Assembly: GCA_016936655.1 (NCBI GenBank)
Contig: JAFGXL010000003.1
Location: forward strand, 1 to 33,194
DNA: 33,194 nucleotides
Direction: 5' to 3'
From: Nitrospirota bacterium
GTDB lineage: Bacteria; Nitrospirota; Thermodesulfovibrionia; Thermodesulfovibrionales; Dissulfurispiraceae
Both the position numbers and the translations under genes were made by a program. The notes under the pieces were generated by a model. That model was not told where the DNA came from and searched no databases. It saw only the letters and a program-made list of their open reading frames with translations. Below, piece after piece: positions 7,232 through 32,049 of this stretch. Each line of letters opens with the position of its first letter. Positions within the stretch are counted from its first letter, which is position 1.

Positions 7232-7251
7232 AATTTAAATCTGAATTGAAA

Positions 7252-9245: not shown

Positions 9246-9258
9246 ACAGGAGAAATGA

Positions 9259-11209: not shown

Positions 11210-11218
11210 ACACAAATC

Positions 11219-12885: not shown

Positions 12886-12898
12886 TGAGGAGCTGCGC

Positions 12899-13969
12899 AT
12901 GGGACTTCTATACACAAAAATGAAAGTGTTCCATTTCAGGGAAAAGCTTGAATCGCTCTCTGCTAAAAATCCTGATATATTGCCTCCAATTCAAATCCGG
13001 ATTAAACCTACCAATGTTTGTGCGCACAACTGCTGGTACTGTGCCTATAAGGCTGATAATCTCAAGCTCGGCAAAGACATGGTCAAGTCAGACCATATAC
13101 CGAAAGACAAGATGATAGAAATCATCAATGACTGTACTGAAATGGGTGTAAGGTCAATAACATTCAGCGGCGGAGGAGATCCTTTTCACTACCCTTATCT
13201 TGTTGAAGCTGTAAAAAAGCTTGCACACAGCCCTGTAAAGTTTGCATCACTCACGCATGGCGCAAGACTTGAAGGAGAGCTGGCTGAAATATTTTCTGAA
13301 TATGCGACATGGCTCAGAGTATCAATTGACGGATGGGATGATGCCAGCTATTCTGAGTACAGAAGTGTGCCGCAAGGTGAATATACAAGAGTGATGAAAA
13401 ACCTTGAAGCCTTCAAAAAGATAAGCGGCAAATGCTACTTAGGAGTTGTTCTTATCACTGATAAAAAGAATGCACCGCATGTATATTCTCAAATTGAGAA
13501 GCTGAAAAATATAGGAGTTAACAGTATAAAAATATCACCATGCATAGTAAGCGAAGTGAGTGCAGAAAACAACAGTTATCATAAGGAGCTTTTTCCATTA
13601 GTTAAAGACCAGATACAGAAAGCAATGAATAGCTTTGCTGACAGCAACTTCGAGATTTACGACGCATATCATACACTTGAGGAGAGATTTGAAAAGAGTT
13701 ATACATGGTGTCCGTATATCCAGATTGTGCCTGTTATAGGCGCAGACATGAATGTATATACCTGTCATGACAAGGCATATGATCTTGATGAAGGACTACT
13801 TGGGTCGATTAAAGACCAAAGTTTTAAAAACTTCTGGTTTTCAAATAAAGAAAAGTTTTTCAAGATTAATCCGTCTAAAGACTGCAACCACCACTGCATG
13901 GTGAATTTTAATAATAATCTTATTCATGAATATCTGAATGCAGATGAAGATCATCTGGATTTTGTTTGA
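12899..13969 (+). CDS. Radical SAM protein with SPASM-like C-terminus (third)
   Basis: I chose ATG 12899, which has GAGGAG at 12887-12892 with 6-nt spacing, over ATG 12863, which would overlap the previous gene by 23 bp. The resulting 356-residue protein has CX3CX2C at C41/C45/C48 (CAHNCWYC), then FSGGGDPFHYP as the SAM-binding GGE-like motif. C-terminal cysteines in WCPYIQIVPVIGADMNVYTC and DCNHHCMVNF indicate a SPASM-type auxiliary cluster, and GLLGSIKDQSFKNFWFS matches the segment typical of SPASM proteins. It is related in plan, but not closely similar in sequence, to the protein at 8178-9245. The substrate is unknown. Confidence 0.88.
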   Translation: MGLLYTKMKVFHFREKLESLSAKNPDILPPIQIRIKPTNVCAHNCWYCAYKADNLKLGKDMVKSDHIPKDKMIEIINDCTEMGVRSITFSGGGDPFHYPYLVEAVKKLAHSPVKFASLTHGARLEGELAEIFSEYATWLRVSIDGWDDASYSEYRSVPQGEYTRVMKNLEAFKKISGKCYLGVVLITDKKNAPHVYSQIEKLKNIGVNSIKISPCIVSEVSAENNSYHKELFPLVKDQIQKAMNSFADSNFEIYDAYHTLEERFEKSYTWCPYIQIVPVIGADMNVYTCHDKAYDLDEGLLGSIKDQSFKNFWFSNKEKFFKINPSKDCNHHCMVNFNNNLIHEYLNADEDHLDFV

Positions 13970-13984
13970 ATTTCGGGAGGACTA

Positions 13985-14641
13985 ATGAAAACATCTGCTG
14001 AACATGTTGACAAGATTATAGATACGCCTCTGTTTAAGCTGGGTCCCAGGGCATCATACAGTATGCTGCACGATCCTAAGCACCTTGTGTTTGTACTTTC
14101 AAGATATAAGTTCTGCGCAAAGCTGCTTGATAGAAAGCATTCAGTACTTGAAGTCGGCTGTGGTGATTCTTTTGGTTCTCCGCTTGTTGCACAGGCGGTT
14201 AAAGATCTCTTTTGTCTTGATCGAGAATCTCGTCTTATTGATTCAAACCAAGAGAGGCTGGCAGGTGTTGAAAACATAGAATTCCATACCATGGATATAA
14301 CAGCAAAATCTCCAGATAGAAAGTTTGATGCTGCTTTCAGCTTAGATGTCATTGAGCATATTGATCCTGAAAAAGATAATGCGTTTGTTTCAAATATTTG
14401 TAAATGTCTCACAAAAGACGGTGTTTTGATAATAGGAACGCCAAATATAGAAGCTGCGAAATATGCATCAGAACCGGGTGCAAGCCCGCACATCAATCTG
14501 AAGAGCCACGATACATTAAAGAAGCTGCTCGCTAATTATTTCAATAATACATTCATTTTTTCTATGAATGATGAAGTTGTGCATACCGGATTCTATCCCA
14601 TGGCTCACTATCTTTTTGGTGTAGGTGTAGGTCTAAGGTAA
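13985..14641 (+). CDS. Class I SAM-dependent methyltransferase
   Basis: The 218-residue protein is preceded by GGGAGG at 13975-13980, 4 nt before the ATG, an excellent ribosome site. Motif I is VLEVGCGDSFGSPLVAQAV near residues 56-74, with FDAAFSLDVIEHIDPEKDN as motif IV and LTKDGVLIIGTPN after it. This arrangement is typical of Methyltransf_11/23-type enzymes in polysaccharide clusters. No membrane segment is seen. It sits 2 bp ahead of the aminotransferase gene and is probably translated with it. An amino-sugar or O-methyl target is plausible but not visible in the sequence. Confidence 0.85.
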   Translation: MKTSAEHVDKIIDTPLFKLGPRASYSMLHDPKHLVFVLSRYKFCAKLLDRKHSVLEVGCGDSFGSPLVAQAVKDLFCLDRESRLIDSNQERLAGVENIEFHTMDITAKSPDRKFDAAFSLDVIEHIDPEKDNAFVSNICKCLTKDGVLIIGTPNIEAAKYASEPGASPHINLKSHDTLKKLLANYFNNTFIFSMNDEVVHTGFYPMAHYLFGVGVGLR

Positions 14642-14643
14642 CC

Positions 14644-15861
14644 ATGCAAAAACAACTTCTTGCGGTAAATGGCGGCAGCAAGACAAGGCAAACACCTATG
14701 CCATGTAGAAAGCTCTTTGGGCCGGATGAGTTGAGTATTGTTGAGCAGGTATTTAAAGATTCATGGCAGATCGGTGTTGACTTTGGATATCAGGGCAAAT
14801 ACGAGAAGTTATATACTGATGCATTTTGCGAGTTTCAAGGCGGCGGATATGCAGATGCAGTCTGCTCAGGAACTGCAGCAATACATCTTGCGCTTCAGGC
14901 ACTCGACATTGAAGCTGGAAGTGATGTCATTGTTTCGCCAGTAACTGACCCGGGTAGTGTTGCCCCAATTATCATACAAGGGCATAGACCCGTACCAGCG
15001 GACTCTGAGCCTGACTCGTTCAATATGGGCGTTGCAGAGTTTGAGAGAGCCATAACTACTGAGACGCGTGCTGCTATTATTACTCATTCGGGCGGCTATC
15101 CTGCGGATATTGAACATATCGTTCGTATTGCCAGACAAAAGGGGATTAAGGTTATTGAAGACTGCTCTCAGGCTCATGGAGCATTATTCAACGGGAAGAA
15201 GGTCGGTACATTTGGTGACTTTGCCGCATTTTCGACAATGTTTTCCAAGACTCATGCAACAGGTGGATGCGGTGGAGTTGTCTATACGCAGAATGAAGAA
15301 TATTACTGGAAAATACGCTCACTTGCTGATAGAGGAAAGCCTTTTGACAAGAAGGATTATGATCCAAAAGATCCATCACAATTTTCATTTCCTGCATTGA
15401 ATTACAATCTCGATGAGCTATCGTGTGCGATTGGTTTTTCAACGCTTCGCCGTTTGCAAGAGACCATTGACAGGCGATGTGAAATAGCAGAGAAAATCGA
15501 TAAATCCTTAGGATATTCGCGTGTTGTTTATGTTCCTGAGTCAAGGTCGAAAATTAAGCTTGCACAGAAACCTTCACCCTTTTTTCATACATTATGTGTC
15601 AATACAGACAAGGTTCGAGTATCAAAAAAGGACTTTGCTAATGCTGTGGCAGCAGAGGGTATACCGCTTAATCCAGACTACAGGTATATAGTCTCAGAAT
15701 GGAGCTGGATGCGGCCTTATGCGGATATGAATTCTACACCAAATGCCAGGCGGTTTTGTGACATCTCGTTTAATTTAACATTTAATGAGAGATATTCAGA
15801 GCAAGAAATATCTGATATTGCAGGGAGCATTTTTAAGGTTGAGGCTGAATATGCAAAATAA
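14644..15861 (+). CDS. DegT/DnrJ/EryC1/StrS-family sugar aminotransferase
   Basis: The 405-residue protein belongs to the PLP-dependent sugar aminotransferases: CSGTAAIHLALQAL in the cofactor-phosphate region, VIEDCSQAHGA with D173 near the pyridine nitrogen, and FSTMFSKTHATGGCGGVV with K202 as the likely Schiff-base lysine. The region FPALNYNLDELSCAIGFSTL is also typical. The family aminates nucleotide-linked 3- or 4-keto sugars, so a keto-sugar is probably made for this glycan. No 4,6-dehydratase is in the window, so the substrate comes from elsewhere or from the ThDP or radical SAM steps. The gene's 3' end overlaps the sulfotransferase start by 11 bp. A link to amino-group tailoring of the same sugar that is sulfated is inference. 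Confidence 0.92.
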   Translation: MQKQLLAVNGGSKTRQTPMPCRKLFGPDELSIVEQVFKDSWQIGVDFGYQGKYEKLYTDAFCEFQGGGYADAVCSGTAAIHLALQALDIEAGSDVIVSPVTDPGSVAPIIIQGHRPVPADSEPDSFNMGVAEFERAITTETRAAIITHSGGYPADIEHIVRIARQKGIKVIEDCSQAHGALFNGKKVGTFGDFAAFSTMFSKTHATGGCGGVVYTQNEEYYWKIRSLADRGKPFDKKDYDPKDPSQFSFPALNYNLDELSCAIGFSTLRRLQETIDRRCEIAEKIDKSLGYSRVVYVPESRSKIKLAQKPSPFFHTLCVNTDKVRVSKKDFANAVAAEGIPLNPDYRYIVSEWSWMRPYADMNSTPNARRFCDISFNLTFNERYSEQEISDIAGSIFKVEAEYAK

Positions 15862-16645
15862 AAATAATCAGAAAAACAAATTGCCGATATTTATTTTGGG
15901 GTGTCAGCGTTCAGGAACTTCATTGCTCAGGAGAATATTTGATTCACACACCAACATAGCATGCCCGCCTGAGTCAGGTTTCATTGTTCAGCTTGCTGGT
16001 GTTTATGAGAATGAACGTTCAATACAGTGCCTTGAAAGCATGGGATTTACAAAGCAGCAAGTGCTGGATGAGATGAGGAGTTTTACCACACACTTTTTTT
16101 ATGATTACGCTGCGAGGAAAGGTAAGAATAGATGGGCAGACAAAACGCCTCACTATGTTAATCACGCTGAAACTATTGACAATATGTTTGGCGGCAAAGT
16201 TCTCTACATAGGTATTGTCAGGCACGGCCTTGATGTGGCCTGCTCTTTGTGCGATTATGAGTGGGGCATTCTCAAGCCATATATGGCTGATGGAATTGAC
16301 AAACCAATAGCAGCAGTACGTTTTTGGCGCGATCAGAATCTTAAACTCGTCGAGTTTAAGAAAAAGGCAGAAGGCCGATTTCACTTGATCAAATATGAAG
16401 ATCTTACTACAATTCCGGAAACTGTGTTGAGGAAGGCATTCAGATATATTGATGAACCATGGGAAGATTCGGTACTTGATTTTAACAACCATCAGCATGA
16501 TGCAGGATTTGAGGACCCCAAAATTACGAAGCTGAGCAAGATTGAGAGCAACAGCGGTAACTACAAAAAATGGTCTGCTGAGCTGCAGGAGAAGCTGTTT
16601 TTAGAGGCTCAAGATGTTTTCGAACATTACGGATATAAGATCTGA
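15851..16645 (+). CDS. PAPS-dependent sulfotransferase family protein
   Basis: I use ATG 15851, not an upstream alternative at 15785, because the family fold starts directly after it (KLPIFILGCQRSGTSLLRR). The 264-residue protein has the 5'-phosphosulfate-binding loop at residues 17-26 (GCQRSGTSLL) and a 3'-phosphate-binding segment near 118-132 (GIVRHGLDVACSLCDYEWG) with the expected Arg and Ser. FHLIKYEDLTTIPETVLRKA also matches Sulfotransfer_1/3-type proteins. It should move a sulfuryl group from PAPS to a hydroxyl or amine of a sugar. The PAPS-making CysC lies in the same gene run (6623-7231). No signal peptide or membrane anchor is seen, so action in the cytosol is likely. Confidence 0.85.
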   Translation: MQNKNNQKNKLPIFILGCQRSGTSLLRRIFDSHTNIACPPESGFIVQLAGVYENERSIQCLESMGFTKQQVLDEMRSFTTHFFYDYAARKGKNRWADKTPHYVNHAETIDNMFGGKVLYIGIVRHGLDVACSLCDYEWGILKPYMADGIDKPIAAVRFWRDQNLKLVEFKKKAEGRFHLIKYEDLTTIPETVLRKAFRYIDEPWEDSVLDFNNHQHDAGFEDPKITKLSKIESNSGNYKKWSAELQEKLFLEAQDVFEHYGYKI

Positions 16646-17894: not shown

Positions 17895-18083
17895 TATTAT
17901 GTTTTGGCTGACGAGTACGAAATGTTTAAAGATGCATTAACACAGGCAATAATGAATAACAACTTTAATATGATTAAAAAGCCCAAGTATCTTAATCTGA
18001 TTCTTACGGAGATACGTAATCTTGAATAAATAAAATTGCTCAAGAGTGAAGTCGAACAGTTTGAGGATAGCATAAATGAAAGA
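17895..18083 (+). pseudogene. Possible decayed C-terminal extension of the GT2 gene
   Basis: Downstream of the GT2 stop (TGA, 17892-17894), the same frame reads protein-like sequence (YYVLADEYEMFKDALTQAI onward) to TAA at 18027-18029, then continues (KLLKSEVEQFEDSINER) to TAA at 18084-18086. There are no frameshifts, only two stops in the 63 codons, and the amino-acid composition looks ordinary. This suggests point mutations cut off a former 60-residue tail. An alternative is an independent 35-residue ORF from ATG 17922 to 18029, but no good ribosome site precedes it. Read-through or recoding cannot be excluded but has no specific support. Confidence 0.4.
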
Positions 18084-19141: not shown

Positions 19142-20827
19142 ATGGCAAATAAACAGGATATTTTAATAGAGCTGGTCTTTGCAAAAAACAGCAGCCCGAG
19201 TCTAACGGTCAGAACTGCTGAAAGCGCTGCAAAACCGCTGCACAGCCTTTATGATCCAGAAACAGAGGCTGCGACACTTGTATCCGGGTTTAATTTTATT
19301 GGCAAGGGTCTTCTTGTTGTTCTTGGTCTTGGCCTCGGATACCATATTAAAGAGCTGATAACTAAATATCCTGATGCTGAGCTTATTGTTATAGAGCCTG
19401 ATGCAGGAATTTACGAATATGCAAAAGCCCATGGCACTCTGAAAAATACAATCAGCAGCCTGGATGTAGTTGTAGGGTTAAAGCCTGACAAGGCGCTTGA
19501 GCATATTTCTAAGGCACAAATAATGCACGGGATGAGGCAGTTATCCTTCTTCAAGCTACAGTCTGAGGTGTCGGTTTTTTCATCATACTTTGCACCCATA
19601 ATTAAAGCGCTCGATGCATCAGTATCTGTCAAGCTCTGGGAACGGCTCAGGTACACCAAGTTTAAAGATGCAAGAACAAAGATTCTTCTTATTGACCAGA
19701 AGTATTTTCTTACCAAAGAGATCGAGCGAGCTGCTGAGTCAAACGGCCATATTGTTGAAAAGGTTTCTCTAACAAAAGGCGAGGTGACTGGCGATATACT
19801 GCCGAGATTGATCAGGAAGATTATAGAGTTTAAACCTGACTTTTTAATGACAATAAACCATCTCGGTTTTGATGAAGAGGGGATAATAGCTTCTTTCCTT
19901 GAATCAATCGATATGCCTGCAGCCTCGTGGTATGTTGACAGTCCGGATCTTATTGTGAGGAGCTTTACAAAAAACGCGCTCTCAAATATCCATCTTTTCA
20001 TCTGGGACAGACACTATATTCCGAGCATGCGGAGCGTTGGTTTCGAAAATGTGATTTATCTGCCTCTTGCTGCTGATGAAGATGTATTCAGGCCTATGGA
20101 ACTTTCAAAACATGATTTCAGAAAGTATGGAGCAGATACAAGTTTTGTAGGCAATTCGATGGTTAAACCATATAAAGACAACATTCAAAAACTGCCTGCC
20201 TCCTGTCATGAGGCAGTAGAAAAGCTCGCTGCTGCATTATCAAAGGAGCGTGTTTCACTCAGCAGCCTGATTGCTGACCATACTGATTTAAAAGATGACA
20301 TTAATAAACTTGATACACACCAGAGGCTCGCCTTGGATGCTGCGGTGTTATGGAAAGCTACCATGCTATACAGGGCAGGGCTGATAAACTCTCTCGATTT
20401 TCTTAATCCTGTTGTGCATGGTGATGCCGGATGGAAGTCGCTATTGTCAAAAAATATACAGCTCAAACCGGAGCTGCACTACTATTCAGAGCTGCCGCAG
20501 TTATATAATGCTTCGAAAATTAATTTTAATGCTACAAGTCTCCAGATGCTCGGAGCTGTAAACCAAAGGGTGTTTGATGTGCCTGCTTGCAGGGGCTTTC
20601 TTCTGACCGATGCCCAGGACTCGATATCTGACCTGTTTGAACCCGGCAAAGAGGTGATCACCTACTCATCACAGCAAGAAGCTGCTGATCTTGCAAGGCA
20701 CTTTCTTGACAATGAGTCAGGCAGAAGAGCAGTTGCACAAGCGGCTCATCAAAGGGTGCTTAATGAGCATACTTACAGACACAGAATGCTCAGAATTACC
20801 AAAGAGATGAGGAAGATGTTTCCGTAA
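19142..20827 (+). CDS. Maf N-terminal-like segment fused to CgeB-type glycosyltransferase (first)
   Basis: The 561-residue protein has two parts. Residues about 30-160 resemble the N-terminal domain of Maf (motility accessory factor) flagellin-glycosylation proteins: LHSLYDPETEA near 33, then LLVVLGLGLGYHIKEL near 58-73 and VIEPDAGIYEYAKAHG. Residues about 180-561 form a CgeB-type GT-B domain, with AASWYVDSPDL, CRGFLLTDAQDSISDLFEPG, a helical insertion near 350-430 and the closing NEHTYRHRMLRI signature. The domain order matches the paralogue at 23939-25720. A role in adding sugar to flagellin is inferred from the Maf-like part. No membrane segment is seen. Confidence 0.78.
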   Translation: MANKQDILIELVFAKNSSPSLTVRTAESAAKPLHSLYDPETEAATLVSGFNFIGKGLLVVLGLGLGYHIKELITKYPDAELIVIEPDAGIYEYAKAHGTLKNTISSLDVVVGLKPDKALEHISKAQIMHGMRQLSFFKLQSEVSVFSSYFAPIIKALDASVSVKLWERLRYTKFKDARTKILLIDQKYFLTKEIERAAESNGHIVEKVSLTKGEVTGDILPRLIRKIIEFKPDFLMTINHLGFDEEGIIASFLESIDMPAASWYVDSPDLIVRSFTKNALSNIHLFIWDRHYIPSMRSVGFENVIYLPLAADEDVFRPMELSKHDFRKYGADTSFVGNSMVKPYKDNIQKLPASCHEAVEKLAAALSKERVSLSSLIADHTDLKDDINKLDTHQRLALDAAVLWKATMLYRAGLINSLDFLNPVVHGDAGWKSLLSKNIQLKPELHYYSELPQLYNASKINFNATSLQMLGAVNQRVFDVPACRGFLLTDAQDSISDLFEPGKEVITYSSQQEAADLARHFLDNESGRRAVAQAAHQRVLNEHTYRHRMLRITKEMRKMFP

Positions 20828-20828
20828 T

Positions 20829-20850
20829 AAGGCATAATAAAAAATGCCTT
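20829..20850 (+). other. Short intergenic hairpin
   Basis: AAGGCAT (20829-20835) and ATGCCTT (20844-20850) form a perfect 7-bp stem with an 8-nt A-rich loop right after the preceding stop codon. No T-run follows, so termination is doubtful; a role in transcript processing or stability is possible. The element lies in the 72-bp gap before the largest gene of the island. Confidence 0.35.
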
Positions 20851-20899
20851 TCAAGTTGCTGGTTGTTCTGTTAAGATATCACCACGGAGGGTCTATTAT

Positions 20900-23806
20900 A
20901 TGGTACTGAGGATACTCACTTTTAACTGGCACGAGGCTTATATATCACTGCTTGCAAAGACGGGTCATGATTTTGATGTTGTCCAGAAGTGGAAGGGCGG
21001 CAGATTCGGCTGGATGACAGAGTTCAGGCCGGTGCCGCAGAACTGCCGCCTCATAACAGAAGATGAGGCAAAGGCAAAAATCTCAAATTCCGAATATGAC
21101 AGAATCATATGCCACAACATGGAAGATCTAGTCTTTAGCCTTAATACCAAGATTCCCAAGATATTTGTTTTTCACAACAAGCTCACAACAGAGATAGGTC
21201 TGGGAGGTAATGCGGTTGATCGAAATGACTACCTTATCCATGTAAAAAAGCTTTTCAGAGCTTCCGCTCCTGTTTTGCCAATATTCATTTCAGAATCCAA
21301 GCGTGCAGATTGGGGGCTTGATGGAGAAATTATAATGCCCGGCATAGATGCGCAAGAGTATGGAGGCTGGTCAGGCGAAGAAAAAAAGGCGCTCAGGATC
21401 GGTAATCTTCTGAAGGAGCGCGATCTGATGCTAGGATTTAATATTCAGGAGCAGATACTCAGAGACATACCTTCAACTATACTCGGACTAAATCCTACAA
21501 TACAGGGGTCGAGCATACCTGACAGCTGGGAATCTCTTAAGTCATATATGAAGTCTCACAGGGTATATATGAATACATGTGTTCACCCTTATGAAGATGG
21601 CTATAATCTGGCCCTTTTAGAAACAATGGCCACAGGAATGCCAATTGTTTCGATAGCCAATGCTACTTCTCCTATTGCAGACGGTGTTAATGGATTTATT
21701 TCTGATGACTACGAATATCTGTATGATAAGGTGCTGGAACTGTTTAGTGATGATAAGCTGGCTTCATCTGTCGGCATAAAAGCTAAAGAGACAGTAAAAG
21801 AAAAGTTTCATATCGAGAAGTTCATAGCCTCCTGGAATGATGCTTTGTCATATACAATAAAGACTGCGCATCAATACGCATCTAAATATTCAGAACCGGC
21901 AAAGACAGAGCTCAATATCTTGATGAGCTATACATCCAATCCGCAGACAACTGCCGCTTATCTTGAAAAGGCACTCAGAAAGTTTAATTCAGTAGTAACC
22001 TATGGACCAAGGCTTAGCGATGATATTGTTAAGGCATGGGATCTTGAACTTATCAAAGACAGAATAAAAGACCATGACATTCCATACAGAGGTCCTGATA
22101 TAAATGACGCGCTTAAAGAATTGCCTGAAGGATGGCATCCGGATATTTTCCTATGGGTAGAGTCAGGTGTATGGTTTCCGCTCGACAATCTGGAGACTAT
22201 GCCATGTGTTAAGGTCTGCTATTTGATAGATACTCATCTGAATCTAGAGACTCATCTTAAGGTCGCACGTCCGTTTGATATTGTATTTCTTGCGCAGAGG
22301 TCATACATACCAAGATTTATCCAAGAAGGCTACACAAATGTTTTTTGGCTGCCGCTGGGCTGTGATGTTGAGATGCATGGCAAGCGCGGAGATCAGAAAA
22401 ATTATGAAATAGGTTTTGTAGGCAGTCTTAATAATGAAAACAGGATCAGGCTGCTTAATATGCTGTCGCAGAATCTTCCGGTCCATTATGAAAGGGCTTT
22501 CTTAGAGAGGATGTCAGAAGTCTTTTCTGAATCCAAGATCGTCTTTAACAACTGCGTAAAGGATGATCTGAATATGAGGGTTTTTGAGGTGCTTTGCTCA
22601 GGCAGCATGCTTTTGACTGATGAGGCTAGAGGCAGCGGTCTTACTGAAATGTTTAGTGATAAAAAACATCTGGTGATTTATAGAAATGACGAAGAGCTGC
22701 TTAAGCTTGCTGAATACTATCTGAAAAATGATAAAGAGCGCGAAGATATTGCTGCCAAAGGTATGCAGGAAGTACTTGCAAAACATACTTATGACCACAG
22801 GGCTCGCGAGCTGATAACAAAGGTAGCTGCAAATGCTGACAAGATAATCAGGGTTGATAAGGAAAACAAGACACTTTCTATGCCTCAAGAGGAGTCCAAA
22901 CCCTTGGACTATTATGCACAGCCGAGACATGAAGTGGCTGCCCTTGTTCCAAAATCCGCACGCGTAATACTTGATGTAGGATGCGGAGAGGGTGTGCTGG
23001 GAGAACTGCTTTTAAAGCAGGGAGTAACTAAAGTTGTTGGAATAGAGATTAATCCTGATGCATGTGAAAAGGCTAAAAACAGACTTTCTGATGTAATATG
23101 CGGAGACATAGAGTCAATAAATCTGCCTTTTGCTGACGGATATTTTGACTGCATAATAATGGCTGATGTGCTTGAGCATTGTAAGGAACCTTTAAAGGTC
23201 TTGAAGAAATTTTCACGTTATCTCAATGATTGCGGCAGGATAGTAGCGAGCATACCTAATGTCCGTTTCTGGGCAATTGTTATGATGCTGGCTGCGGGCA
23301 GATGGCAGTATGAAGACTCTGGAATTCTGGATAGAACACACTTGAGGTTTTTCACAAAAAAAGAGATAGAAATACTTTTTAGTGATACTGATCTGGAGAT
23401 CTCTTTGATAACAGCTAATCTGGATCCCAGATACAAGAACATACAAAATCAGAAGCTCACAAGTCTGCGGTTCGGGAAAATGGTTATAGAGGATGTTACA
23501 GAAGAGGACATCAAAGAGTTCTTTTCAATACAGTATCTGATAAGAGCGAAAAAGAGCGTCTGCGACTCAGCTATGCTTGAACTTGCGCTTAAGGAAGATA
23601 TTAGCGATTCAGACAAGAAGTTTGCGATAGACGAATATCTCAAGGCTCATCCCGGAGATCTGAATATGCTTTTTAGACATGCTGAACTATGTTATAGAAT
23701 GGGTCTGTACGAAGATGCATTGCTAAGCATAGAGAAGGTTATAATTTTTGACCCCGGCAGGCAGGGCTCCATTGAGCTGAGAAATAAAATTGTTGAGGCT
23801 GGATGA
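20900..23806 (+). CDS. Multidomain GT4 - CgeB - methyltransferase - TPR-like protein
   Basis: This 968-residue protein joins four units. Residues 1-320 are a GT4-type glycosyltransferase (LRILTFNWHEAYISLLAKTG at the start; HPYEDGYNLALLETMATGMP with the EX7E-like site near 230). About 337-645 is a CgeB-type GT domain (VFEVLCSGSMLLTDEARGSG, then AKHTYDHRARELI). About 690-860 is a class I methyltransferase with intact motif I (ILDVGCGEGVLGELL) and CIIMADVLEHCKEP. The end, about 895-968, has TPR-like helices (YRMGLYEDALLSIEKVIIFD). CGGAGGG lies 9 bp before the ATG. Two sugar transfers and one methylation could therefore be carried out by one polypeptide; whether all domains are active is not known. 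Confidence 0.85.
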   Translation: MVLRILTFNWHEAYISLLAKTGHDFDVVQKWKGGRFGWMTEFRPVPQNCRLITEDEAKAKISNSEYDRIICHNMEDLVFSLNTKIPKIFVFHNKLTTEIGLGGNAVDRNDYLIHVKKLFRASAPVLPIFISESKRADWGLDGEIIMPGIDAQEYGGWSGEEKKALRIGNLLKERDLMLGFNIQEQILRDIPSTILGLNPTIQGSSIPDSWESLKSYMKSHRVYMNTCVHPYEDGYNLALLETMATGMPIVSIANATSPIADGVNGFISDDYEYLYDKVLELFSDDKLASSVGIKAKETVKEKFHIEKFIASWNDALSYTIKTAHQYASKYSEPAKTELNILMSYTSNPQTTAAYLEKALRKFNSVVTYGPRLSDDIVKAWDLELIKDRIKDHDIPYRGPDINDALKELPEGWHPDIFLWVESGVWFPLDNLETMPCVKVCYLIDTHLNLETHLKVARPFDIVFLAQRSYIPRFIQEGYTNVFWLPLGCDVEMHGKRGDQKNYEIGFVGSLNNENRIRLLNMLSQNLPVHYERAFLERMSEVFSESKIVFNNCVKDDLNMRVFEVLCSGSMLLTDEARGSGLTEMFSDKKHLVIYRNDEELLKLAEYYLKNDKEREDIAAKGMQEVLAKHTYDHRARELITKVAANADKIIRVDKENKTLSMPQEESKPLDYYAQPRHEVAALVPKSARVILDVGCGEGVLGELLLKQGVTKVVGIEINPDACEKAKNRLSDVICGDIESINLPFADGYFDCIIMADVLEHCKEPLKVLKKFSRYLNDCGRIVASIPNVRFWAIVMMLAAGRWQYEDSGILDRTHLRFFTKKEIEILFSDTDLEISLITANLDPRYKNIQNQKLTSLRFGKMVIEDVTEEDIKEFFSIQYLIRAKKSVCDSAMLELALKEDISDSDKKFAIDEYLKAHPGDLNMLFRHAELCYRMGLYEDALLSIEKVIIFDPGRQGSIELRNKIVEAG

Positions 23807-23938
23807 TACAAAATTATTTTACGAATAATTTCAAATAAAATTAATCAATCTGGACAGTTAGATTTTTTTCTTATATGCAGTTTTATGCAGTAATGTAATC
23901 TGGTAATTTCTTTTAAATAACGGAGTGCAATTAATCTA
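23807..23938 (+). other. AT-rich intergenic spacer with hairpin and direct repeat
   Basis: This 132-bp gap is one of the longest inside the island. It has an all-A/T inverted repeat, AAATTATT (23811-23818) and AATAATTT (23824-23831), with a 5-nt loop, and ATGCAG twice, 4 nt apart, near 23875-23890. TGGACA at 23851-23856 resembles a -35 box, but no well-spaced -10 box follows. An internal promoter or mRNA processing site is possible but not shown. CGGAG precedes the next gene. Confidence 0.3.
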
Positions 23939-25720
23939 ATGAACCTGAAAAATAATATTTCGTTACTGCGAACAAGAAATAAAAAGTTCGCTGAGCAGAT
24001 AATGTCATGCAAGCCTACCAGCGACATTGTTGTTTCGGAAACAAAGTCAGGGCTTAAGTCTTTAAAAATTGATAAAACTGCGATTCATAGCTTTTATGAT
24101 CCTGTAAAAGAGGCTCAGCAGTGGGCTCTGCATAATAGGGAGCGTGCAGAAAATATACCTGCCGTAATTGTATTGGGTTTTGGTTTTGGTTATCACATTA
24201 GAGAACTGCTAAAGCATACAGATGCAGAGATGTATGTATGCGAATCAAGGCCGGATATCATACGCGCAGCATTTGAGTCTGTTGACCTTACCGATATTCT
24301 GCCCAGGATAAATATTATCGCTGATCAGAATATTCCTCCTTTGAGAAAAAACTTTGAGATACTCGAGCATGCTCCATCAGTCAGCATCAACAAGAAGTAT
24401 TACATGGAGCTTTTAAACAGATTAAAAACCCTTAAGCTTATAGCAAAAGGCCTCAGGATTATGGTTGTCGGCCCTATTTACGGAGGCTCGCTTCCTATCG
24501 CCAGATATTGCTCTGAGGCATTCAGAAATATGGGCGTTGATGTAGACTTCTTCGACAGCAGTATTTACAGTCCGGCATTCTTTTCTGTTAAAGACATAAC
24601 AACAATAACAGATCACCAGAATCAGCTGCGTGATATGCTGGCATCATTCATTTCAGAAGCAGTTATAGCGAGATGTCAGGAGTATAGACCTGATATTGTA
24701 TTTGCACTGGCACAGGCTCCGCTTAATGAACTTGGGCTGGCAAAGCTCAGGGCAAGCGGCATACCGACAGCGTTCTGGTTTGTTGAGGATCATAAGACAC
24801 TCTCTTATTGGAAAGTGATGGCAAAATACTATGACTATTTCTTCACTATTCAGCGCGGCGACTTTATTAGGCAGCTCGGAGATCTTGGACTCCAGAATGT
24901 AAAATATCTTCCACTTGCAGCATCTCCGCATATACATAAGAAAATTAAACTCACAAAAAAAGATATGGATATGTTTGGCAGTGATGTATCTTTTATGGGA
25001 GCCGGATACTATAACAGGCGCAGATTTTTTCTCGGCCTAATGGATTATGACCTTAAGATCTGGGGCAATGAGTGGGATCCGCATGCGCCTCTCAACAAGT
25101 TTTATCAGAGATCAGGGGAGCGAATCACTACAGAAGATACTGTTAAGATATTTAATGCATCAAAAATAAATGTGAATCTGCATTCATCCACATACCATTC
25201 AGGAGTTGATCCATACGGAGATTTTGTTAATCCCCGCACTTTTGAACTCGCATCCTGCGGAGCGTTTCAGCTGGTTGATTACAGGTCTGAATTGCCTGAG
25301 CTCTTTAATATTGGAGAAGAGGTTATATGTTTTGAGGATGTGAGCGACATTCGAAAAAAAATCAACTATTATCTCGATAATGAACAGGAGAGAGAGGCTG
25401 CAGCTCTCAAGTCTATGAATCGCGTACTTAAAGACCATACATATCAACATAGAATGTATGAGGCGCTCCAGTTCATGATTGAGAGCGGGCTGAATCTGCC
25501 GTCATGGTCAAATGCTCCTGAAGATATTCGTGATCTTATATCTAAAGCAGGTGCGGATACGGAACTGGGTCTATATCTTAAACAGTTCAGGGCTGAAGGC
25601 AATATCAGCCTTAATGATATTATGCAGACTATTCACAAGGGGAAAGGCGCCCTTGGGCATGTAGAAAAGATGTTTCTGCTGCTCGATGAAATGAGGGACG
25701 TATACTGCAAAAAGGATTGA
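23939..25720 (+). CDS. Maf N-terminal-like segment fused to CgeB-type glycosyltransferase (second)
   Basis: This 593-residue protein repeats the architecture of 19142-20827. Residues about 45-165 are Maf-N-like: IHSFYDPVKEAQQW near 49, VIVLGFGFGYHIRELL near 76-91 and YVCESRPDIIRAAFES. Residues about 172-520 form a CgeB-type GT-B domain (LRIMVVGPIYGGSLPIARYC, SFMGAGYYNRRRFFLGLMDY, ELASCGAFQLVDYRSELPEL, then KDHTYQHRMYEAL). A helical tail of about 70 residues follows. The two copies are too diverged for a recent duplication. Predicted job: glycosyltransferase dedicated to a protein target, probably flagellin; the target is inference. Confidence 0.8.
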   Translation: MNLKNNISLLRTRNKKFAEQIMSCKPTSDIVVSETKSGLKSLKIDKTAIHSFYDPVKEAQQWALHNRERAENIPAVIVLGFGFGYHIRELLKHTDAEMYVCESRPDIIRAAFESVDLTDILPRINIIADQNIPPLRKNFEILEHAPSVSINKKYYMELLNRLKTLKLIAKGLRIMVVGPIYGGSLPIARYCSEAFRNMGVDVDFFDSSIYSPAFFSVKDITTITDHQNQLRDMLASFISEAVIARCQEYRPDIVFALAQAPLNELGLAKLRASGIPTAFWFVEDHKTLSYWKVMAKYYDYFFTIQRGDFIRQLGDLGLQNVKYLPLAASPHIHKKIKLTKKDMDMFGSDVSFMGAGYYNRRRFFLGLMDYDLKIWGNEWDPHAPLNKFYQRSGERITTEDTVKIFNASKINVNLHSSTYHSGVDPYGDFVNPRTFELASCGAFQLVDYRSELPELFNIGEEVICFEDVSDIRKKINYYLDNEQEREAAALKSMNRVLKDHTYQHRMYEALQFMIESGLNLPSWSNAPEDIRDLISKAGADTELGLYLKQFRAEGNISLNDIMQTIHKGKGALGHVEKMFLLLDEMRDVYCKKD

Positions 25721-25721
25721 T

Positions 25722-27464
25722 ATGAAGGAAGTCATTATACTTAATCTGACCAGAATGGGTGATCTTATACAGACCACTCCTGTTATGCAGGGTATAAAAG
25801 AGAAATATCCTGAATGCAGGATAACTCTGGTTGTTAATGGACTTTTCGAAAAGATATGCAGCTTTATCCCTCATGTTGATGAGGTGATTGTTTTTGACAT
25901 GAAAGAGTTTCAGTCTATTGCATGCGGCGGCTCAGGCATTGTTGAGCAGTACAGGTATACAGAAGATTTCGTAAAAAAGATAAACAGCCGTCATTATGAT
26001 ATGGCGATAAACTTTACACACTCAAGGCCTAGCGCTGTTATCCTTTCCCTCACTAATGCTGATGACAGAAGGGGTTTTATGGTTGATGCAGAGGGCAACA
26101 GTATTATCAGGCATCCATGGATGAAGTATTTTTTTAATGTTATCCCAAACCGCGATTTTAATCCTTTTCATCTATGTGATATTTATGTTAAGTCTGGCGA
26201 GCTTGTACCTTCAAAGAAAGGCTTGCATCTGGATGTGCCGGTTGCAGCAATGGAAGATATAAAAAAACTTCTCGATGCTAACCAGATAAGCCCAAGTGAT
26301 AAATTAATAGCTATCCAGCTTGGAGCCAGCTCTGAGGACAAGCGATGGACAGCTCCATCATTCGCTGCCATGGCTGACAAGCTTGTTCAGCAAAGAGGAG
26401 CTAAGATAGTGCTTATAGGGTCTTCATCAGAAGATGCGCTCGGAAGAGAATTTGAGCTTTCTGCATCTAGCAGGCCGCTTAACCTTATAGGCAAAACAGA
26501 TCTGAGTCAGCTTGCTGCACTGCTTCACAGATGCGATATGCTGGTGAGTAATGATACAGGGCCTCTTCATATAGCAACAGCTGTAGGCACAAAGGTTCTT
26601 GATATATCAGTTGCTTCTGTGCATTTTAGAGAGACAGGGCCTTACGGAGACAACCTTTATGTGATACAGTCAGAGCTTTCATGCTGTCCATGTAGTTTTT
26701 ATAATGTATGCAAAAACCCGATATGCAAAGATACAGTTACACCCGACAATGTGTTCTCTCTTGTCTGCTCGATTTTAGATAGTGACGAGCCTATAGAGTG
26801 CATACAGGAGTCTGCCCTCTGGAAAAACGCTCAGGTATATAAATCATACTTTGAGGATGATGGGCTGATAGAGTATAGACCGCTTATAAAAAGGGCTGTC
26901 AGCAGGCATGTTCTTTACAGTCATATATTCAGGCAGACATGGCTAAGGATACTGGACGCAAAGAAATCATCTGATCCGTTTGTCACAATTTATGATCCTT
27001 CTGCCCTAGAAGCGATACCAGAGTCCATATCAGACAGGCTTGTGAAGCTCATTGGGGAATGGTATAATGATGAAATTTCTGATGACTTTTTTGCTTCTAT
27101 TGAAGAAGAGGTTGCATCTATGAAGCGGCTTAAAGAGCTGGCGGATGAAGGCTACATCAGGGTATCAATGATCGAGTCTGAAGCACGCAAACAGTCGCCT
27201 GATGTTGTCAGGATAAAAGACCTCTGGTCAGCAGTTCCTGACATTGATGAAGGTATAGACAAGATAGGCAATATTTTTACATCGATTCATCCGCTTACAG
27301 TTATTTTTAGTTATGGCCGGAGCGGACTTGAGGGCAGCGATCTGAAGCTGCTTGCAGCAGAGACAGCAAGGCTGTACGACGAACTTAGGGTGCATGTATC
27401 AATGGTTCTGAGTGTTGTCGATAAGCTTTTAAATAGATATGCGGTTAAGGCTGTGAATAAATAA
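25722..27464 (+). CDS. GT9 glycosyltransferase with long C-terminal extension
   Basis: The 580-residue protein starts 1 bp after the previous stop. Residues 1-350 are GT9: MKEVIILNLTRMGDLIQTTP, IAIQLGASSEDKRWTAPSFA, then LVSNDTGPLHIATAVGTKVL, and the Cys cluster CCPCSFYNVCKNPICKD near 321. That is the normal size of an entire heptosyltransferase. About 230 extra residues follow, mostly helical and acidic, with no domain I recognise (for example EYRPLIKRAVSRHVLYSHIF). The extension could bind the protein target or a partner. Activity on ADP-heptose or another donor cannot be read. It is the last glycosyltransferase of the island. Confidence 0.87.
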   Translation: MKEVIILNLTRMGDLIQTTPVMQGIKEKYPECRITLVVNGLFEKICSFIPHVDEVIVFDMKEFQSIACGGSGIVEQYRYTEDFVKKINSRHYDMAINFTHSRPSAVILSLTNADDRRGFMVDAEGNSIIRHPWMKYFFNVIPNRDFNPFHLCDIYVKSGELVPSKKGLHLDVPVAAMEDIKKLLDANQISPSDKLIAIQLGASSEDKRWTAPSFAAMADKLVQQRGAKIVLIGSSSEDALGREFELSASSRPLNLIGKTDLSQLAALLHRCDMLVSNDTGPLHIATAVGTKVLDISVASVHFRETGPYGDNLYVIQSELSCCPCSFYNVCKNPICKDTVTPDNVFSLVCSILDSDEPIECIQESALWKNAQVYKSYFEDDGLIEYRPLIKRAVSRHVLYSHIFRQTWLRILDAKKSSDPFVTIYDPSALEAIPESISDRLVKLIGEWYNDEISDDFFASIEEEVASMKRLKELADEGYIRVSMIESEARKQSPDVVRIKDLWSAVPDIDEGIDKIGNIFTSIHPLTVIFSYGRSGLEGSDLKLLAAETARLYDELRVHVSMVLSVVDKLLNRYAVKAVNK

Positions 27465-27495: not shown

Positions 27496-27915
27496 GTGCA
27501 GAATAAAATAAATAATGAAGATCTTAAGAAGGTTCTACTCAAAGAGATCAATTCAGCTCATGAGGTTTTGATCCAGATAACAGACGGTTTTAGTGAGTGC
27601 ACTAATACTTTAAGGGTTGAGCAGAATGAGAATGTATTCACCCTTTTGTCTGAACTGATTAAAAATCTCAACCTCTTCGTAGATTTTATAAAAGAGCTAA
27701 AAACAGGTGTTGACCATCTGAATGAGAGCGGACATAACCTTCCTGTAGAGCCACTTATACACTGGGACAAATCTCTTGAACTATTTAAGAATATGCTCGA
27801 ATCATTTGAAGGATCTGACTGGGTAACACTCTGCGATCTTATGCAGTATGAGCTTATTCCCATGCTGAAGGAAGGCGAGGAAAAGCTTGTTAATCTAAAG
27901 TCAGCTCTTCAGTAG
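27496..27915 (+). CDS. Small helical protein of unknown function
   Basis: The 139-residue protein starts at GTG 27496; AAGGAGG at 27484-27490 is 5 nt upstream, and ATG 27494 would stop after five codons. It is acidic and predicted almost wholly helical, with no signal peptide or membrane segment. A patch near the end, GSDWVTLCDLMQYELIPML, looks conserved in character, and I have a weak impression that similar DW...YEL...P patterns occur in uncharacterised proteins near flagellar loci. It is the last gene before the strong terminator, so it belongs to the glycosylation run. A chaperone or adaptor for flagellin is conceivable, but nothing in the sequence proves it. Confidence 0.75.
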   Translation: MQNKINNEDLKKVLLKEINSAHEVLIQITDGFSECTNTLRVEQNENVFTLLSELIKNLNLFVDFIKELKTGVDHLNESGHNLPVEPLIHWDKSLELFKNMLESFEGSDWVTLCDLMQYELIPMLKEGEEKLVNLKSALQ

Positions 27916-28153: not shown

Positions 28154-28921
28154 ATGCTTGATCTGGCGACATTTTTGGGGCTGTTGATAGGAATTGGCGC
28201 TATTCTGGCCGGCAATCTGATTGAGGGTGGAACTACTGGCCATCTTATTCAGTTTGCTGCTGCAGTTATAGTCTTTGGCGGTACATTTGGGGCTACGCTT
28301 CTTGGATGTTCAATGCAGGACATGAAGAATGCATTCAGAGCCTTTTTTATGATTTTTAAGACCCGGCCAGATTCAGCTCCAGAGGTTATAAATGAGGTTC
28401 TCAAAATACTGGCAATGGCAAGGAAGATAGGCTTGGTAGCTCTCGAGCCTGAGGTCAAGAAGATAAATCATCCCTTCCTGAAAAAAGGGCTCTACCTTGT
28501 TATAGACGGAATGTCTCCTGTGATGATCAAGGATGTGCTTTCGCAGGAGATTACCACATATGAGGAGACATATAAAAAAGCTGCAAAGGTATTTGAATCT
28601 GCCGGCGGCTATGCTCCTACCATAGGAATAATTGGAGCAGTTCTCGGCCTGATACAGGTTATGAAAGATGTTACTGACCCATCAAAGATAGGCGGAGGAA
28701 TTGCTGTAGCTTTTGTCGCTACTATATATGGAGTGGGTTCTTCTAATCTCTTTTTTATACCAACAGCAAAAAAAATCATGAGCAGGGTAAGAGAAGAGGT
28801 ATTTATAATGGAGCTGATTTTAGAAGGCATAATGGGAATAGAGAGCGGAGTGAATCCTTATTTTATGAGAGCGCGTCTTAATGCGTTTTTGTCTGAACAC
28901 CAAAAGAGAGAGAATAACTGA
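28154..28921 (+). CDS. motA: Flagellar stator protein MotA family (MotC-like)
   Basis: The 255-residue protein has four expected membrane helices: near 3-21, 31-51, about 152-170 and 183-205. R90 and E98, in MARKIGLVALE, fall exactly at the E. coli MotA numbering for residues that contact the rotor protein FliG. P155 and P203 correspond to the E. coli prolines P173 and P222 needed for torque generation. Length and the GGYAPTIGIIGAVLGLIQVM helix fit the shorter MotC/PomA/MotP group. MotA forms a pentamer around a MotB dimer in the inner membrane and couples ion flow to rotation. Its stop overlaps the next start by 1 bp (TGATG). A second, differently built MotA lies at 30138-30995. Confidence 0.94.
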   Translation: MLDLATFLGLLIGIGAILAGNLIEGGTTGHLIQFAAAVIVFGGTFGATLLGCSMQDMKNAFRAFFMIFKTRPDSAPEVINEVLKILAMARKIGLVALEPEVKKINHPFLKKGLYLVIDGMSPVMIKDVLSQEITTYEETYKKAAKVFESAGGYAPTIGIIGAVLGLIQVMKDVTDPSKIGGGIAVAFVATIYGVGSSNLFFIPTAKKIMSRVREEVFIMELILEGIMGIESGVNPYFMRARLNAFLSEHQKRENN

Positions 28922-29571
28922 TGAGATCAAGACGCAAAAGAGAAGAAGAACATGAGAACCACGAGAGATGGCTTGTTTCTTATGCTGACTTTATTACGCT
29001 GATGTTCACTTTTTTTGTGGCTCTTTATGCGCTATCTTCGCTGGATCAGGGCAAGGCTCAGAAGTTTACCAGTTCACTTAAGCAGGCATTCAAGGTTATA
29101 GATGATCCTATTCCGCTGCATGATACCAGAAGCAAGGAGATGGTGGAGCTGCTAAGAGGGGTTATAAGCCAGACATCAGGCATTACTGTTAAGGAAGAAC
29201 CCAGGGGTGTAGTTATAACCTTTTCTGACGGGGTTTTGTTCAAATCAGGCTCTGCTGAGGTTAAAAAAGATATATTGCCTGTATTGAAAGAGCTTTCTGA
29301 AAAGTTTAGGGATATTAACGGACATTTTATTGTTGAAGGGCATACAGACAATTTGCCTATTGCATCTGACAAGTATCCTTCCAACTGGGAGCTCTCAGCA
29401 GCCAGAGCAGGCAGTGTGGTCGCCCATCTTGTATCCATCGGCATTGATCCTGAAAGGTTTAGTGTTGCCGGATATGCTGAGTACAGGGCTTTGGAGTCTA
29501 ATCTTACGGAAGAGGGCAGGGCTAGAAACAGGCGCGTTGAGATTGTTGTAAAAAATAATAAGGCCTCATAG
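28921..29571 (+). CDS. motB: Flagellar stator protein MotB family (MotD-like)
   Basis: The 216-residue protein has a short cytosolic N-terminus, one membrane helix (WLVSYADFITLMFTFFVALY, residues 17-36) with the ion-carrying Asp at D23, and a periplasmic OmpA/MotB peptidoglycan-binding domain (VEGHTDNLPIA, NWELSAARAGSVV, RARNRRVEIVV). The helix closely resembles the RWLVSYADFITL segment of Pseudomonas MotD, an H+ type stator, so proton use is the likely reading; this is inference. It is shorter than the second MotB because it lacks a C-terminal tail. It is translationally coupled to the upstream motA. Confidence 0.94.
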   Translation: MRSRRKREEEHENHERWLVSYADFITLMFTFFVALYALSSLDQGKAQKFTSSLKQAFKVIDDPIPLHDTRSKEMVELLRGVISQTSGITVKEEPRGVVITFSDGVLFKSGSAEVKKDILPVLKELSEKFRDINGHFIVEGHTDNLPIASDKYPSNWELSAARAGSVVAHLVSIGIDPERFSVAGYAEYRALESNLTEEGRARNRRVEIVVKNNKAS

Positions 29572-29581
29572 GTTAAGAAAT

Positions 29582-30127
29582 ATGCATACAAACAAAGAGT
29601 GCGGCATAGAAAACATAGAAAACAGGGAGTCTCCCAGGGTTGATGTTGTGATACCTTTTGAGGCATCTCTTGTTCCTGCTTCAGAGAAGGAAAATATCCG
29701 CTCCAGAAAAGCTGGCTGGTCCATGCCTGCAGAGTATCAGACTATGGCAGAGATTGAGGACAAGCTGCTCAGCGACTGGCTAAAAATGCTCAATATAAAG
29801 CTTGACCTGATAATAAATATGATGGCTCTTACTAAAGAGGGGATGTCTTCTTTGCCTCCATCAAGACTGAATATAAGCGGCACAGGGCTCTCGTTTTCTG
29901 CTGTAAATGGTTTTAGTGTTGGAGATATTGTTGAGCTTAAACTGCTGTTGCCCCTTATGCCTCCTGTAGCCCTTTTGATTTATGGTGAGGTGGTATGCTG
30001 CGATAAAGAGAGCGGGATCTCCAAAACTGCTGTTAAATTTATAAATATAGATGAAGAGATAACTGACGAGATTGTGAAGTTCATTTTTAAGACAGAAAAA
30101 GAGATTTTAAGAGACAAGAGGAGGTAG
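29582..30127 (+). CDS. PilZ-domain c-di-GMP receptor with helical insertion
   Basis: The 181-residue protein has both c-di-GMP-binding motifs of PilZ: R15xxxR19 (RESPR) and N97xS99xxG102 (NISGTG). In usual PilZ domains these lie about 25-35 residues apart; here an insertion of about 50-60 residues, rich in helix (AEIEDKLLSDWLKMLNIKLD), separates them. A similar long-helix arrangement occurs in tetrameric PilZ proteins; assignment to that class is inference. The beta-barrel continues with VELKLLLPLMPPVALLIYGE. It lies 10 bp after a motD-like gene and 10 bp before the second motA. By analogy with YcgR/FlgZ it probably adjusts stator function when c-di-GMP is high. Confidence 0.85.
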   Translation: MHTNKECGIENIENRESPRVDVVIPFEASLVPASEKENIRSRKAGWSMPAEYQTMAEIEDKLLSDWLKMLNIKLDLIINMMALTKEGMSSLPPSRLNISGTGLSFSAVNGFSVGDIVELKLLLPLMPPVALLIYGEVVCCDKESGISKTAVKFINIDEEITDEIVKFIFKTEKEILRDKRR

Positions 30128-30137
30128 GTAAACAGGG

Positions 30138-30995
30138 ATGTTAACTATAATCGGAGCAGTCTTTGTGCTTGTAAGCGTAATTGGCGGCTATCTTTTGGGT
30201 CACGGCAATCTGAGTGTCCTTTTTCAGCCTGCTGAGCTTGTCATAATTTTTGGAGCAGCTATAGGTGCTTTTATAATCGCATCTCCGCCAAAAGTGATAA
30301 AACTCGTTATTGGCGGAGTTAAGAATATTCTGTCCGGCAAAGCATACTCAAAAGATGACTATATGAATGTTCTTCTGATGATGAGCGAGGTCTTTTCGAA
30401 AATAAGGAAAGAAGGTCTGGTTTCTATAGAGGCAGATGTTGATGATCCTGAAAAAAGCCCGATCTTCAGTAAATATCCTAAGTTTCTGTCAAATCATCAT
30501 GCAGTTACTCTCCTTACAGATACATTAAGAACAGTTATGACAACAAGCATCGCGCCGTACGAACTGGAATCTCTTATTGATACAGAGCTGGAGTCTCACC
30601 ATGAAGAGCTGATGATCCCTGCTCACAGTATTAATACTGTTGCAGACGGTCTGCCCGGCCTCGGTATTGTTGCTGCTGTTATGGGTATTGTCATAACAAT
30701 GGGCAAGATCAATGAGCCGCCTGAGGTGCTGGGGCATCATGTAGGAGCTGCCCTTGTTGGTACTTTTTTGGGAGTTCTTAGCTGCTATGGGTTTGTAGGT
30801 CCTGTAGCAAAGAATCTTGAGTATATAGCTAATGAAGAGAAAGAGTTTTTAAATATTTTCAAGATTGCGCTAGTGGCATTTGTTGGCGGAGCTGCGCCAC
30901 AGATAGCTGTCGAGTTCGGCAGAAGAGGCGTGCCGGGCAATGTAAGGCCTTCTTTCCTTGAGGTGGAAGAGGCTCTCAGACAGATAAGAAAATAG
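30138..30995 (+). CDS. motA: Flagellar stator protein MotA (classical long type)
   Basis: The 285-residue protein is an E. coli-type MotA. R90 and E98 (KIRKEGLVSIE), P173 (GLPGLGIVAAVMGIVITMGK) and P222 (GFVGPVAKNLEYIANEE) all fall exactly at the E. coli positions that contact FliG or support torque. The four membrane helices are visible, with the large cytosolic loop between helices 2 and 3. Together with the next gene it should make a second, H+ driven stator. It shares only general plan with the shorter MotA at 28154-28921, so the two are separate lineages and not a recent duplication. AGGAGG at the end of the PilZ gene and CAGGG just before ATG may serve ribosome binding. Confidence 0.96.
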   Translation: MLTIIGAVFVLVSVIGGYLLGHGNLSVLFQPAELVIIFGAAIGAFIIASPPKVIKLVIGGVKNILSGKAYSKDDYMNVLLMMSEVFSKIRKEGLVSIEADVDDPEKSPIFSKYPKFLSNHHAVTLLTDTLRTVMTTSIAPYELESLIDTELESHHEELMIPAHSINTVADGLPGLGIVAAVMGIVITMGKINEPPEVLGHHVGAALVGTFLGVLSCYGFVGPVAKNLEYIANEEKEFLNIFKIALVAFVGGAAPQIAVEFGRRGVPGNVRPSFLEVEEALRQIRK

Positions 30996-31020
30996 AATTG
31001 AATAATTAAGCAAATACCAT

Positions 31021-32049
31021 ATGAGTGATAAATCAAAAACAATAATAGTTAAAAAAATTAAAAAGGGCGGCGGAGGTCATCACGGCGGCTCATGGAAAGT
31101 CGCTTACGCAGATTTTGTTACAGCCATGATGGCCTTTTTCCTTATGCTATGGCTGCTCGCGATGGTATCACCTGAAAAGCGTGCAGCGCTGTCTGAGTAT
31201 TTCAAGAACTTTTCCCTTTTTTCAGAGTCAGGCCAATCTATGATGTCAGGTTCTACTGAAATAATGCAGAATGCAGAGGGAGAGGTTAAGCATTCGCCTT
31301 CCAAATTTGATACTCCTCAGGATATAAATATTGAGGCTCAAAAAGAGAAGCTGAAAGAGATGATAAGAAAGGCTATCGAACAGAAGATGGCTGCGCTTAA
31401 AGATCAGGTAATAATAGATGTTGTAGATGACGGAATAAGAATACAAATTGTTGATACAGAAGGCGGATGGATGTTTGCTCCGGGCAGTGCGCAGCCTACT
31501 GAGAGGGCAAATCAGCTGATTGGTTTAGTCGCTGAATATGTAAAAGAGACTAAAAATAAAATTGCTGTCGAGGGTCACACAGACGCTTCGCCTACAAAAT
31601 CTTCGGGTAATGGCAACTGGGAGCTCTCCTCAGCAAGGGCTTCATCAGCAAGAAAGGCGCTCGAAAATAACGGGCTTACTGAAAAGAGAATAGAAAGGGT
31701 TGTTGGCTATGCAGACAATCAGCTTCTTTTTAAGGATAAGCCGAATGATGCGCGCAACAGGAGAATAAGCATAATCCTTCTTCACGAAAAATTGCCGCAT
31801 AAAAAAACTGACCAGAAGGCTGCTTCATCTGACAAGCCTACTGCTGCACCAGTTGAGCAGGCACCTGTTCAACAGCAGCCTCCTGCTCCGATACCAGCTC
31901 CTGTTCAGCAGCCTAGACCAGCTCCTGTGCAAGTGCAGCCAAAGCAGCAGGAACTACAGCAGAAAAAGCCTCAAATTATTGATATTAAGCCAAAGAAGCC
32001 TATTGATATAATAAATAAGCCCGTAAATCCTCCTGATTTTAGCAGGTAA
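31021..32049 (+). CDS. motB: Flagellar stator protein MotB (classical type)
   Basis: The 342-residue protein begins with a basic glycine/histidine-rich segment (KKGGGGHHGGSWKVAYADF) as in E. coli MotB; D31 is the proton-carrying Asp (E. coli D32) in a helix ending FFLMLWLLAMVSPEKR. The plug region follows, then the OmpA/MotB peptidoglycan-binding domain (VEGHTDASPT, NWELSSARASSARKALE, NDARNRRISIILL). Residues about 265-342 are a Pro/Gln-rich disordered tail absent from the first MotB. It is the partner of the MotA encoded just upstream. The coding end overlaps the left arm of a terminator-like inverted repeat. Confidence 0.95.
   Translation: MSDKSKTIIVKKIKKGGGGHHGGSWKVAYADFVTAMMAFFLMLWLLAMVSPEKRAALSEYFKNFSLFSESGQSMMSGSTEIMQNAEGEVKHSPSKFDTPQDINIEAQKEKLKEMIRKAIEQKMAALKDQVIIDVVDDGIRIQIVDTEGGWMFAPGSAQPTERANQLIGLVAEYVKETKNKIAVEGHTDASPTKSSGNGNWELSSARASSARKALENNGLTEKRIERVVGYADNQLLFKDKPNDARNRRISIILLHEKLPHKKTDQKAASSDKPTAAPVEQAPVQQQPPAPIPAPVQQPRPAPVQVQPKQQELQQKKPQIIDIKPKKPIDIINKPVNPPDFSR

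Follow-up and report, generated by a model that had tools for sequence, protein, structure and literature searches.

Maf N-terminal domains joined to CgeB-type glycosyltransferases: candidate flagellin-modifying enzymes in Nitrospirota and other phyla

A contig of 33,194 nucleotides from a Nitrospirota bacterium (C40, analysed whole and called the window here) encodes two paralogous proteins, P0001 and P0002, in which the N-terminal domain of Maf proteins is joined to a CgeB-type glycosyltransferase domain. At least three kinds of enzyme in flagellin gene clusters carry this N-domain, which has passed from one enzyme class to another. On the strength of sequence comparison and gene neighbourhood, we predict with reasonable confidence that P0001 and P0002 are cytoplasmic flagellin glycosyltransferases, with a donor other than a nonulosonic acid and with the N-domain serving the target side. 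The two fusions and the genes around them are as follows.

19142..20827, + strand: P0001, type A fusion (Maf N-terminal domain, DUF3880 and Glyco_trans_1_2), 561 aa, ATG start
19151..19666, + strand: Maf N-domain of P0001, about residues 4-175, from the HMM match and the A-family profile
19676..20824, + strand: CgeB-type glycosyltransferase domain of P0001, about residues 179-561, with PF12996 at residues 262-340 and PF13524 at residues 423-552
20900..23806, + strand: 968-aa protein with GT4-type, CgeB-type and SAM-methyltransferase domains (Pfam), between A and B
23939..25720, + strand: P0002, type B fusion (Maf N-terminal domain, DUF3880 and Glyco_trans_1_2), 593 aa, ATG start
23939..24454, + strand: Maf N-domain of P0002, residues 1-172, from the AF2 model, the 5mu5 alignment and conserved columns
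24455..25504, + strand: CgeB-type glycosyltransferase domain of P0002, residues 173-522, from Pfam and the counterpart in Desulfovibrionaceae that lacks the N-domain
25722..27464, + strand: GT9-type glycosyltransferase (PF01075), directly after B
27496..27915, + strand: 139-aa protein without a Pfam match at E 0.01, of a family found near B fusions
28154..32049, + strand: MotA, MotB, PilZ, MotA and MotB (Pfam), flagellar genes at the edge of the cluster and the end of the window

Identity of the N-terminal domain

Both open reading frames are intact, and in each the first 170 residues or so form a domain that is followed by Pfam matches over the cut-off to PF12996 (E 1.4e-11 in P0001, 3e-13 in P0002) and PF13524 (E 1.5e-32 and 4e-37). 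Type A proteins are about 560 aa long and type B proteins about 600 aa. The first-pass annotation had noticed that both proteins open with the motifs HSxYDPxxEA and LGxGxGYHIxEL, and these are present as HSLYDPETEA and LGLGLGYHIKEL in P0001 and as HSFYDPVKEA and LGFGFGYHIREL in P0002. It had also proposed that a CgeB-type transferase replaces the Maf catalytic core, and the domain matches agree: Pfam finds PF12996 and PF13524 in both proteins, and finds that core, PF01973 (MptE-like), in neither of them nor anywhere in the 2.0-Mb assembly to which the window belongs. As PF01973 was looked for and is absent, the two proteins are not Mafs by membership; they probably act in the same pathway. C-terminal of the glycosyltransferase domain, where P0002 has an unassigned tail, neither protein has a TPR or other Pfam match at E 1. 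Searches of solved structures with single full-length P0001 or P0002, and with a profile of the CgeB domain, returned nothing informative. A further CgeB-type domain occurs in a 967-aa protein at 3708-6611 of the window, which also matches GT2 weakly and ends in TPR.

The Pfam model of the Maf N-terminal domain, PF20157, matches P0002 at 43 bits, above its cut-off of 23.5, and P0001 at 21.3 bits, slightly under it, so that the Pfam match alone is insufficient for P0001. An HMM built from ten fusion N-domains retrieved Mafs bearing PF01973, the domain by which we defined true Mafs, at E 1e-18 to 1e-23 and over model positions 3-142 of 144, which rules out a chance motif match. Profile-profile comparison of 94 fusion N-domains with 10 Maf N-domains gave a probability of 99.4% (E 5e-22, 145 columns); the type A family alone, to which P0001 belongs, scored 99.3% against the Maf profile (E 1.5e-20) and the type B family alone 99.4%, whereas 34 methyltransferase domains, used as a control profile, reached an insignificant 15.5% against the fusion N-domains.

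Structural comparison points the same way. A PDB sequence search with a combined N-domain profile that included seven Maf N-domains ranked 5mu5, the single public Maf crystal structure according to a 2024 paper, at the top (E 1.3e-4); the runner-up had E 0.059. Residues 1-172 of P0002, as modelled by AF2 (pLDDT 96.3), align with 5MU5 at Z 15.8 (rmsd 3.0, 162 residues). Spermidine synthases follow at Z 8.9, and in plain Foldseek, without re-ranking, they stand on top (E 1e-5). Because 5mu5 may have been in the AF2 training set, the structure match backs the sequence match and is no substitute for it. The weaker Rossmann matches are expected, since the N-domain is itself a methyltransferase/spermidine-synthase-like Rossmann fold; Pfam finds no spermidine synthase or methyltransferase family in it at E 1, and the similarity to spermidine synthases and SAM-methyltransferases is one of fold only. 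The motif residues of P0002 are H50, S51, D54, P55, G80, G82, G84, Y85 and E102, and across 56 N-domains P55, G80 and G82 are invariant and G84, Y85 and E102 nearly so.

Collectively, both routes that had been suggested for checking the Maf assignment, profile comparison and superposition of a predicted structure, lead to Maf, which is by a wide margin the best match by profile, PDB sequence and structure alignment. The outcome named there as refuting, a lack of any Maf match together with a stronger one to some unrelated Rossmann domain, did not occur, and a generic Rossmann explanation is ruled out by the same three comparisons. The N-domain of the fusions is the Maf N-terminal domain, homologous over its whole length. 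A weak N-domain match in locus L163 belongs to a spermidine-synthase-family protein and was left out of the N-domain architectures.

Other hosts of the N-domain and distribution of the fusions

Besides CgeB domains, the N-domain is found on Maf cores and on SAM-methyltransferases, where it stands before or after the methyltransferase domain. Additional GT4, GT2, GT9 or GT17 domains precede the N-domain and CgeB in further fusions. The clearest view of a transfer comes from locus L044, in which the gene at 7668-8993 joins an N-domain (PF20157, 30.6 bits) to a SAM-methyltransferase (Methyltransf_23). Compared with its counterpart in the neighbouring B fusion, this N-domain is 95.3% identical in DNA over 536 bp and 94% identical over 179 aa. 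On either side the identity drops to background, downstream at the start of CgeB. In this one MAG, the N-domain alone has recently been copied onto a methyltransferase. Elsewhere, a methyltransferase domain lies ahead of the N-domain, which is followed by a Maf core in some proteins and not in others, and the N-domain matches in the short proteins of methyltransferase plus N-domain are weaker (21-42 bits). The idea of a reusable module, put forward from the window alone, gains from these hosts, from CgeB relatives that lack the N-domain (N-less below) and from the one recent duplication. The methyltransferase at 18076 of the window has no N-domain. In L159, L160 and L161, tandem proteins of methyltransferase plus N-domain adjoin one in which these two domains are followed by a Maf core. 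True Maf genes directly adjoin a B fusion at L047:7107-8996 and L055:1909-3885, so the two kinds of enzyme are not mutually exclusive.

The pair of A and B recurs in further members of the order, and the two fusions occur together in 27 of the 80 loci fetched from the genome collection. Type B is present in Nitrospirota, Thermodesulfobacteriota, Myxococcota, Nitrospinota, Calditrichota, Binatota, Latescibacterota and Pseudomonadota (MAGs, with phyla as named). A tree of the CgeB domains has a deep split between A and B, which are old paralogues. In the same tree, the N-less B proteins form one Desulfovibrionaceae clade, whose members are 40-43% identical to P0002, and the complete N-less A proteins form one Calditrichota-like clade. 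In the tree of N-domains, those of four type A proteins lie apart from other A and near B; this may be a swap, in a tree that is short and weakly supported.

Flagellar context, donor sugar and neighbouring genes

Among 65 loci with N-domain fusions, filament genes (counted as flagellin, FliD, FliS, FlgK, FlgL and FliW) occur in 21, motor genes in 19 and either in 37, and flagellin and FliD share loci with the fusions in several phyla. Loci without such a fusion had filament or motor genes in 0 of 15, three of which end early at a contig end, and in the 12 N-less loci of the Desulfovibrionaceae type the fetched regions were free of flagellar genes. In Calditrichota-like loci, N-less type A CgeB proteins adjoin flagellin, so the N-domain is not required there. 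In the window's own assembly, flagellin lies on another contig (C31).

Across 295 Nitrospirota genomes, 111 have N-domains (a count that includes some true Mafs) and 182 have flagellin. Flagellin is present in 108 of the 111 genomes with an N-domain vs 74 of 184 others (Fisher p 1e-26, with kinship ignored). Where the positions of both were compared (71 genomes), the N-domain and the best flagellin share a contig in 65 and lie within 15 kb in 62, many of them 4-5 kb apart. Gene neighbourhood and co-occurrence thus speak for the flagellin pathway to which the first-pass annotation had assigned the module.

The donor appears to set the fusions apart from Maf. Full-length NeuB (E 1e-53 or better) is encoded in 8 of 9 Maf genomes vs 0 of 5 fusion genomes (p 0.003); these five, the window's assembly among them, give only weak partial NeuB hits of about 45 bits. 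From these NeuB counts, in few genomes, we infer for the fusions a donor other than nonulosonic acids. This indicates that flagellin glycosylation can do without such acids in Nitrospirota and related phyla, for which our literature search found no description of the enzymes.

Several neighbours of the fusions recur with them. In related loci, too, genes similar to that at 20900..23806 stand between A and B (gene cluster c12). The family of the 139-aa protein, which has no Pfam or NCBIfam match, is encoded in 43 of 81 loci and, among 60 relatives, in 4 of 5 fusion genomes vs 0 of 55 others (p 1e-5, with few fusion genomes); it has no relative among the ORFs of the Maf loci examined. Its AF2 model is a four-helix bundle (pLDDT 94.4) whose structural matches are generic helical bundles only, and longer relatives (200+ aa) have an additional N-terminal segment. 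In a Latescibacterota locus, L035, a GT9 domain is fused ahead of the type A fusion, as Pfam confirms; in the flagellin loci L035, L051, L054 and L062, a GT9-type gene lies directly before the type A CgeB or is apparently fused to it. Further upstream in the window, 6623-16645 encodes an APS kinase, three radical SAM proteins, a paired E1 dehydrogenase/transketolase-like set, a DegT aminotransferase and a sulfotransferase, which suggest that the sugar is an unusual one and possibly sulfated.

Predicted role, alternatives and related systems

In both proteins a Maf N-domain is joined to a CgeB/DUF3880-type GT-B enzyme, which stands where Maf has its catalytic core, and our preferred model makes them glycosyltransferases of a flagellin glycosylation pathway. 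Maf makes direct contact with flagellin and does its work ahead of chaperone binding and export (PMC4065374); by analogy, the fusions would act in the cytoplasm and would transfer sugar from a non-nonulosonic nucleotide donor to flagellin, or to a glycan already on it. The N-domain would supply what its hosts share, most likely a contact with flagellin or with a flagellin-modifying complex. As the hosts use different donors (CMP-nonulosonic acid, probably an NDP-sugar, and SAM), a role on the target side is the more likely one, and its presence on three enzyme classes in flagellin loci, together with the recent copy on a methyltransferase, points to such a shared role. Against this counts that acceptor specificity in Maf-1 is reported to lie in the C-terminal TPR domain and not in the N-domain (PMC13317340), as does the presence of some N-less CgeB proteins in flagellin loci. 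For the 139-aa helical protein we propose the part of an acceptor adaptor, GlfM-like in role; this is plausible, since flagellin binding by Maf-2 depends on GlfM, which is encoded alongside it (Unay et al. 2024, as cited in PMC13317340).

A wider version of the model, which we hold only tentatively, makes the N-domain a general docking module for flagellin modification, carried by the Maf core, two CgeB lineages and SAM-methyltransferases, with the helical protein replacing the TPR or GlfM adaptor. If it is true, flagellin remains the target even as enzyme class and sugar are free to vary.

The fold of the N-domain invites another reading, namely that it is a ligand-binding or catalytic Rossmann domain (for SAM, decarboxylated SAM or a nucleotide) that derives from a spermidine-synthase/methyltransferase fold, so that the fusions are bifunctional or ligand-regulated. 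The spermidine synthases that rank next after Maf, the invariant and nearly invariant residues listed above, and a weak similarity of the Maf N-domain to methyltransferase motifs, noted in a review of the Maf crystal structure (PMC11339370), are in its favour, and the conserved GxGxG and Glu mean that the N-domain of our preferred model may hold a small ligand too. We nevertheless consider this reading unlikely: the same paper describes this domain of Maf as a Rossmann fold that has degenerated and whose function is unclear, the methyltransferase control profile gave no significant match, and two host classes already have a SAM-methyltransferase domain of their own. It is more improbable that the N-domain serves simply for structural support or dimerisation and plays no part towards the acceptor. 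Such domains are common in enzymes, and CgeB relatives do without this one; yet its reuse tracks the flagellar locus across enzyme classes, and its most conserved residues are motif-like and not scattered through the domain.

The window is itself a large mixed sugar cluster, with asparagine synthase, GT4, GT9 and GT2 besides the DegT, sulfotransferase, APS kinase and radical SAM genes, and might be read as an island for surface glycans, in which the fusions serve LPS, capsule or another such polymer and lie near flagellar genes by shared location. The short distances to flagellin, the near absence of N-domains from genomes without flagellin, and the presence of flagellin and FliD in the same loci in several phyla make this very improbable. 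Returning to flagellin as the target, we found no paper in the literature searched that treats the Maf N-domain as a reusable flagellin-pathway module, and no relevant one linking CgeB or DUF3880 with flagellin. The role of the Maf N-domain, called unclear in the literature, is now testable by domain swaps.

The fusions combine features of known systems. With Maf (PF20157 plus PF01973; 5MU5) they share the entire N-terminal domain and the flagellin-locus context; unlike Maf, they have a CgeB-type GT-B domain, with no PF01973 core and no Pfam match to TPR, and the five fusion genomes checked are without a full NeuB. With the CgeB/DUF3880 glycosyltransferases (PF13524, PF12996) they share the catalytic region, to which they add the Maf N-domain and a place in flagellar loci. 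A possible parallel to the GlfM-assisted Maf-2 systems is that there, too, a small protein is encoded alongside the transferase.
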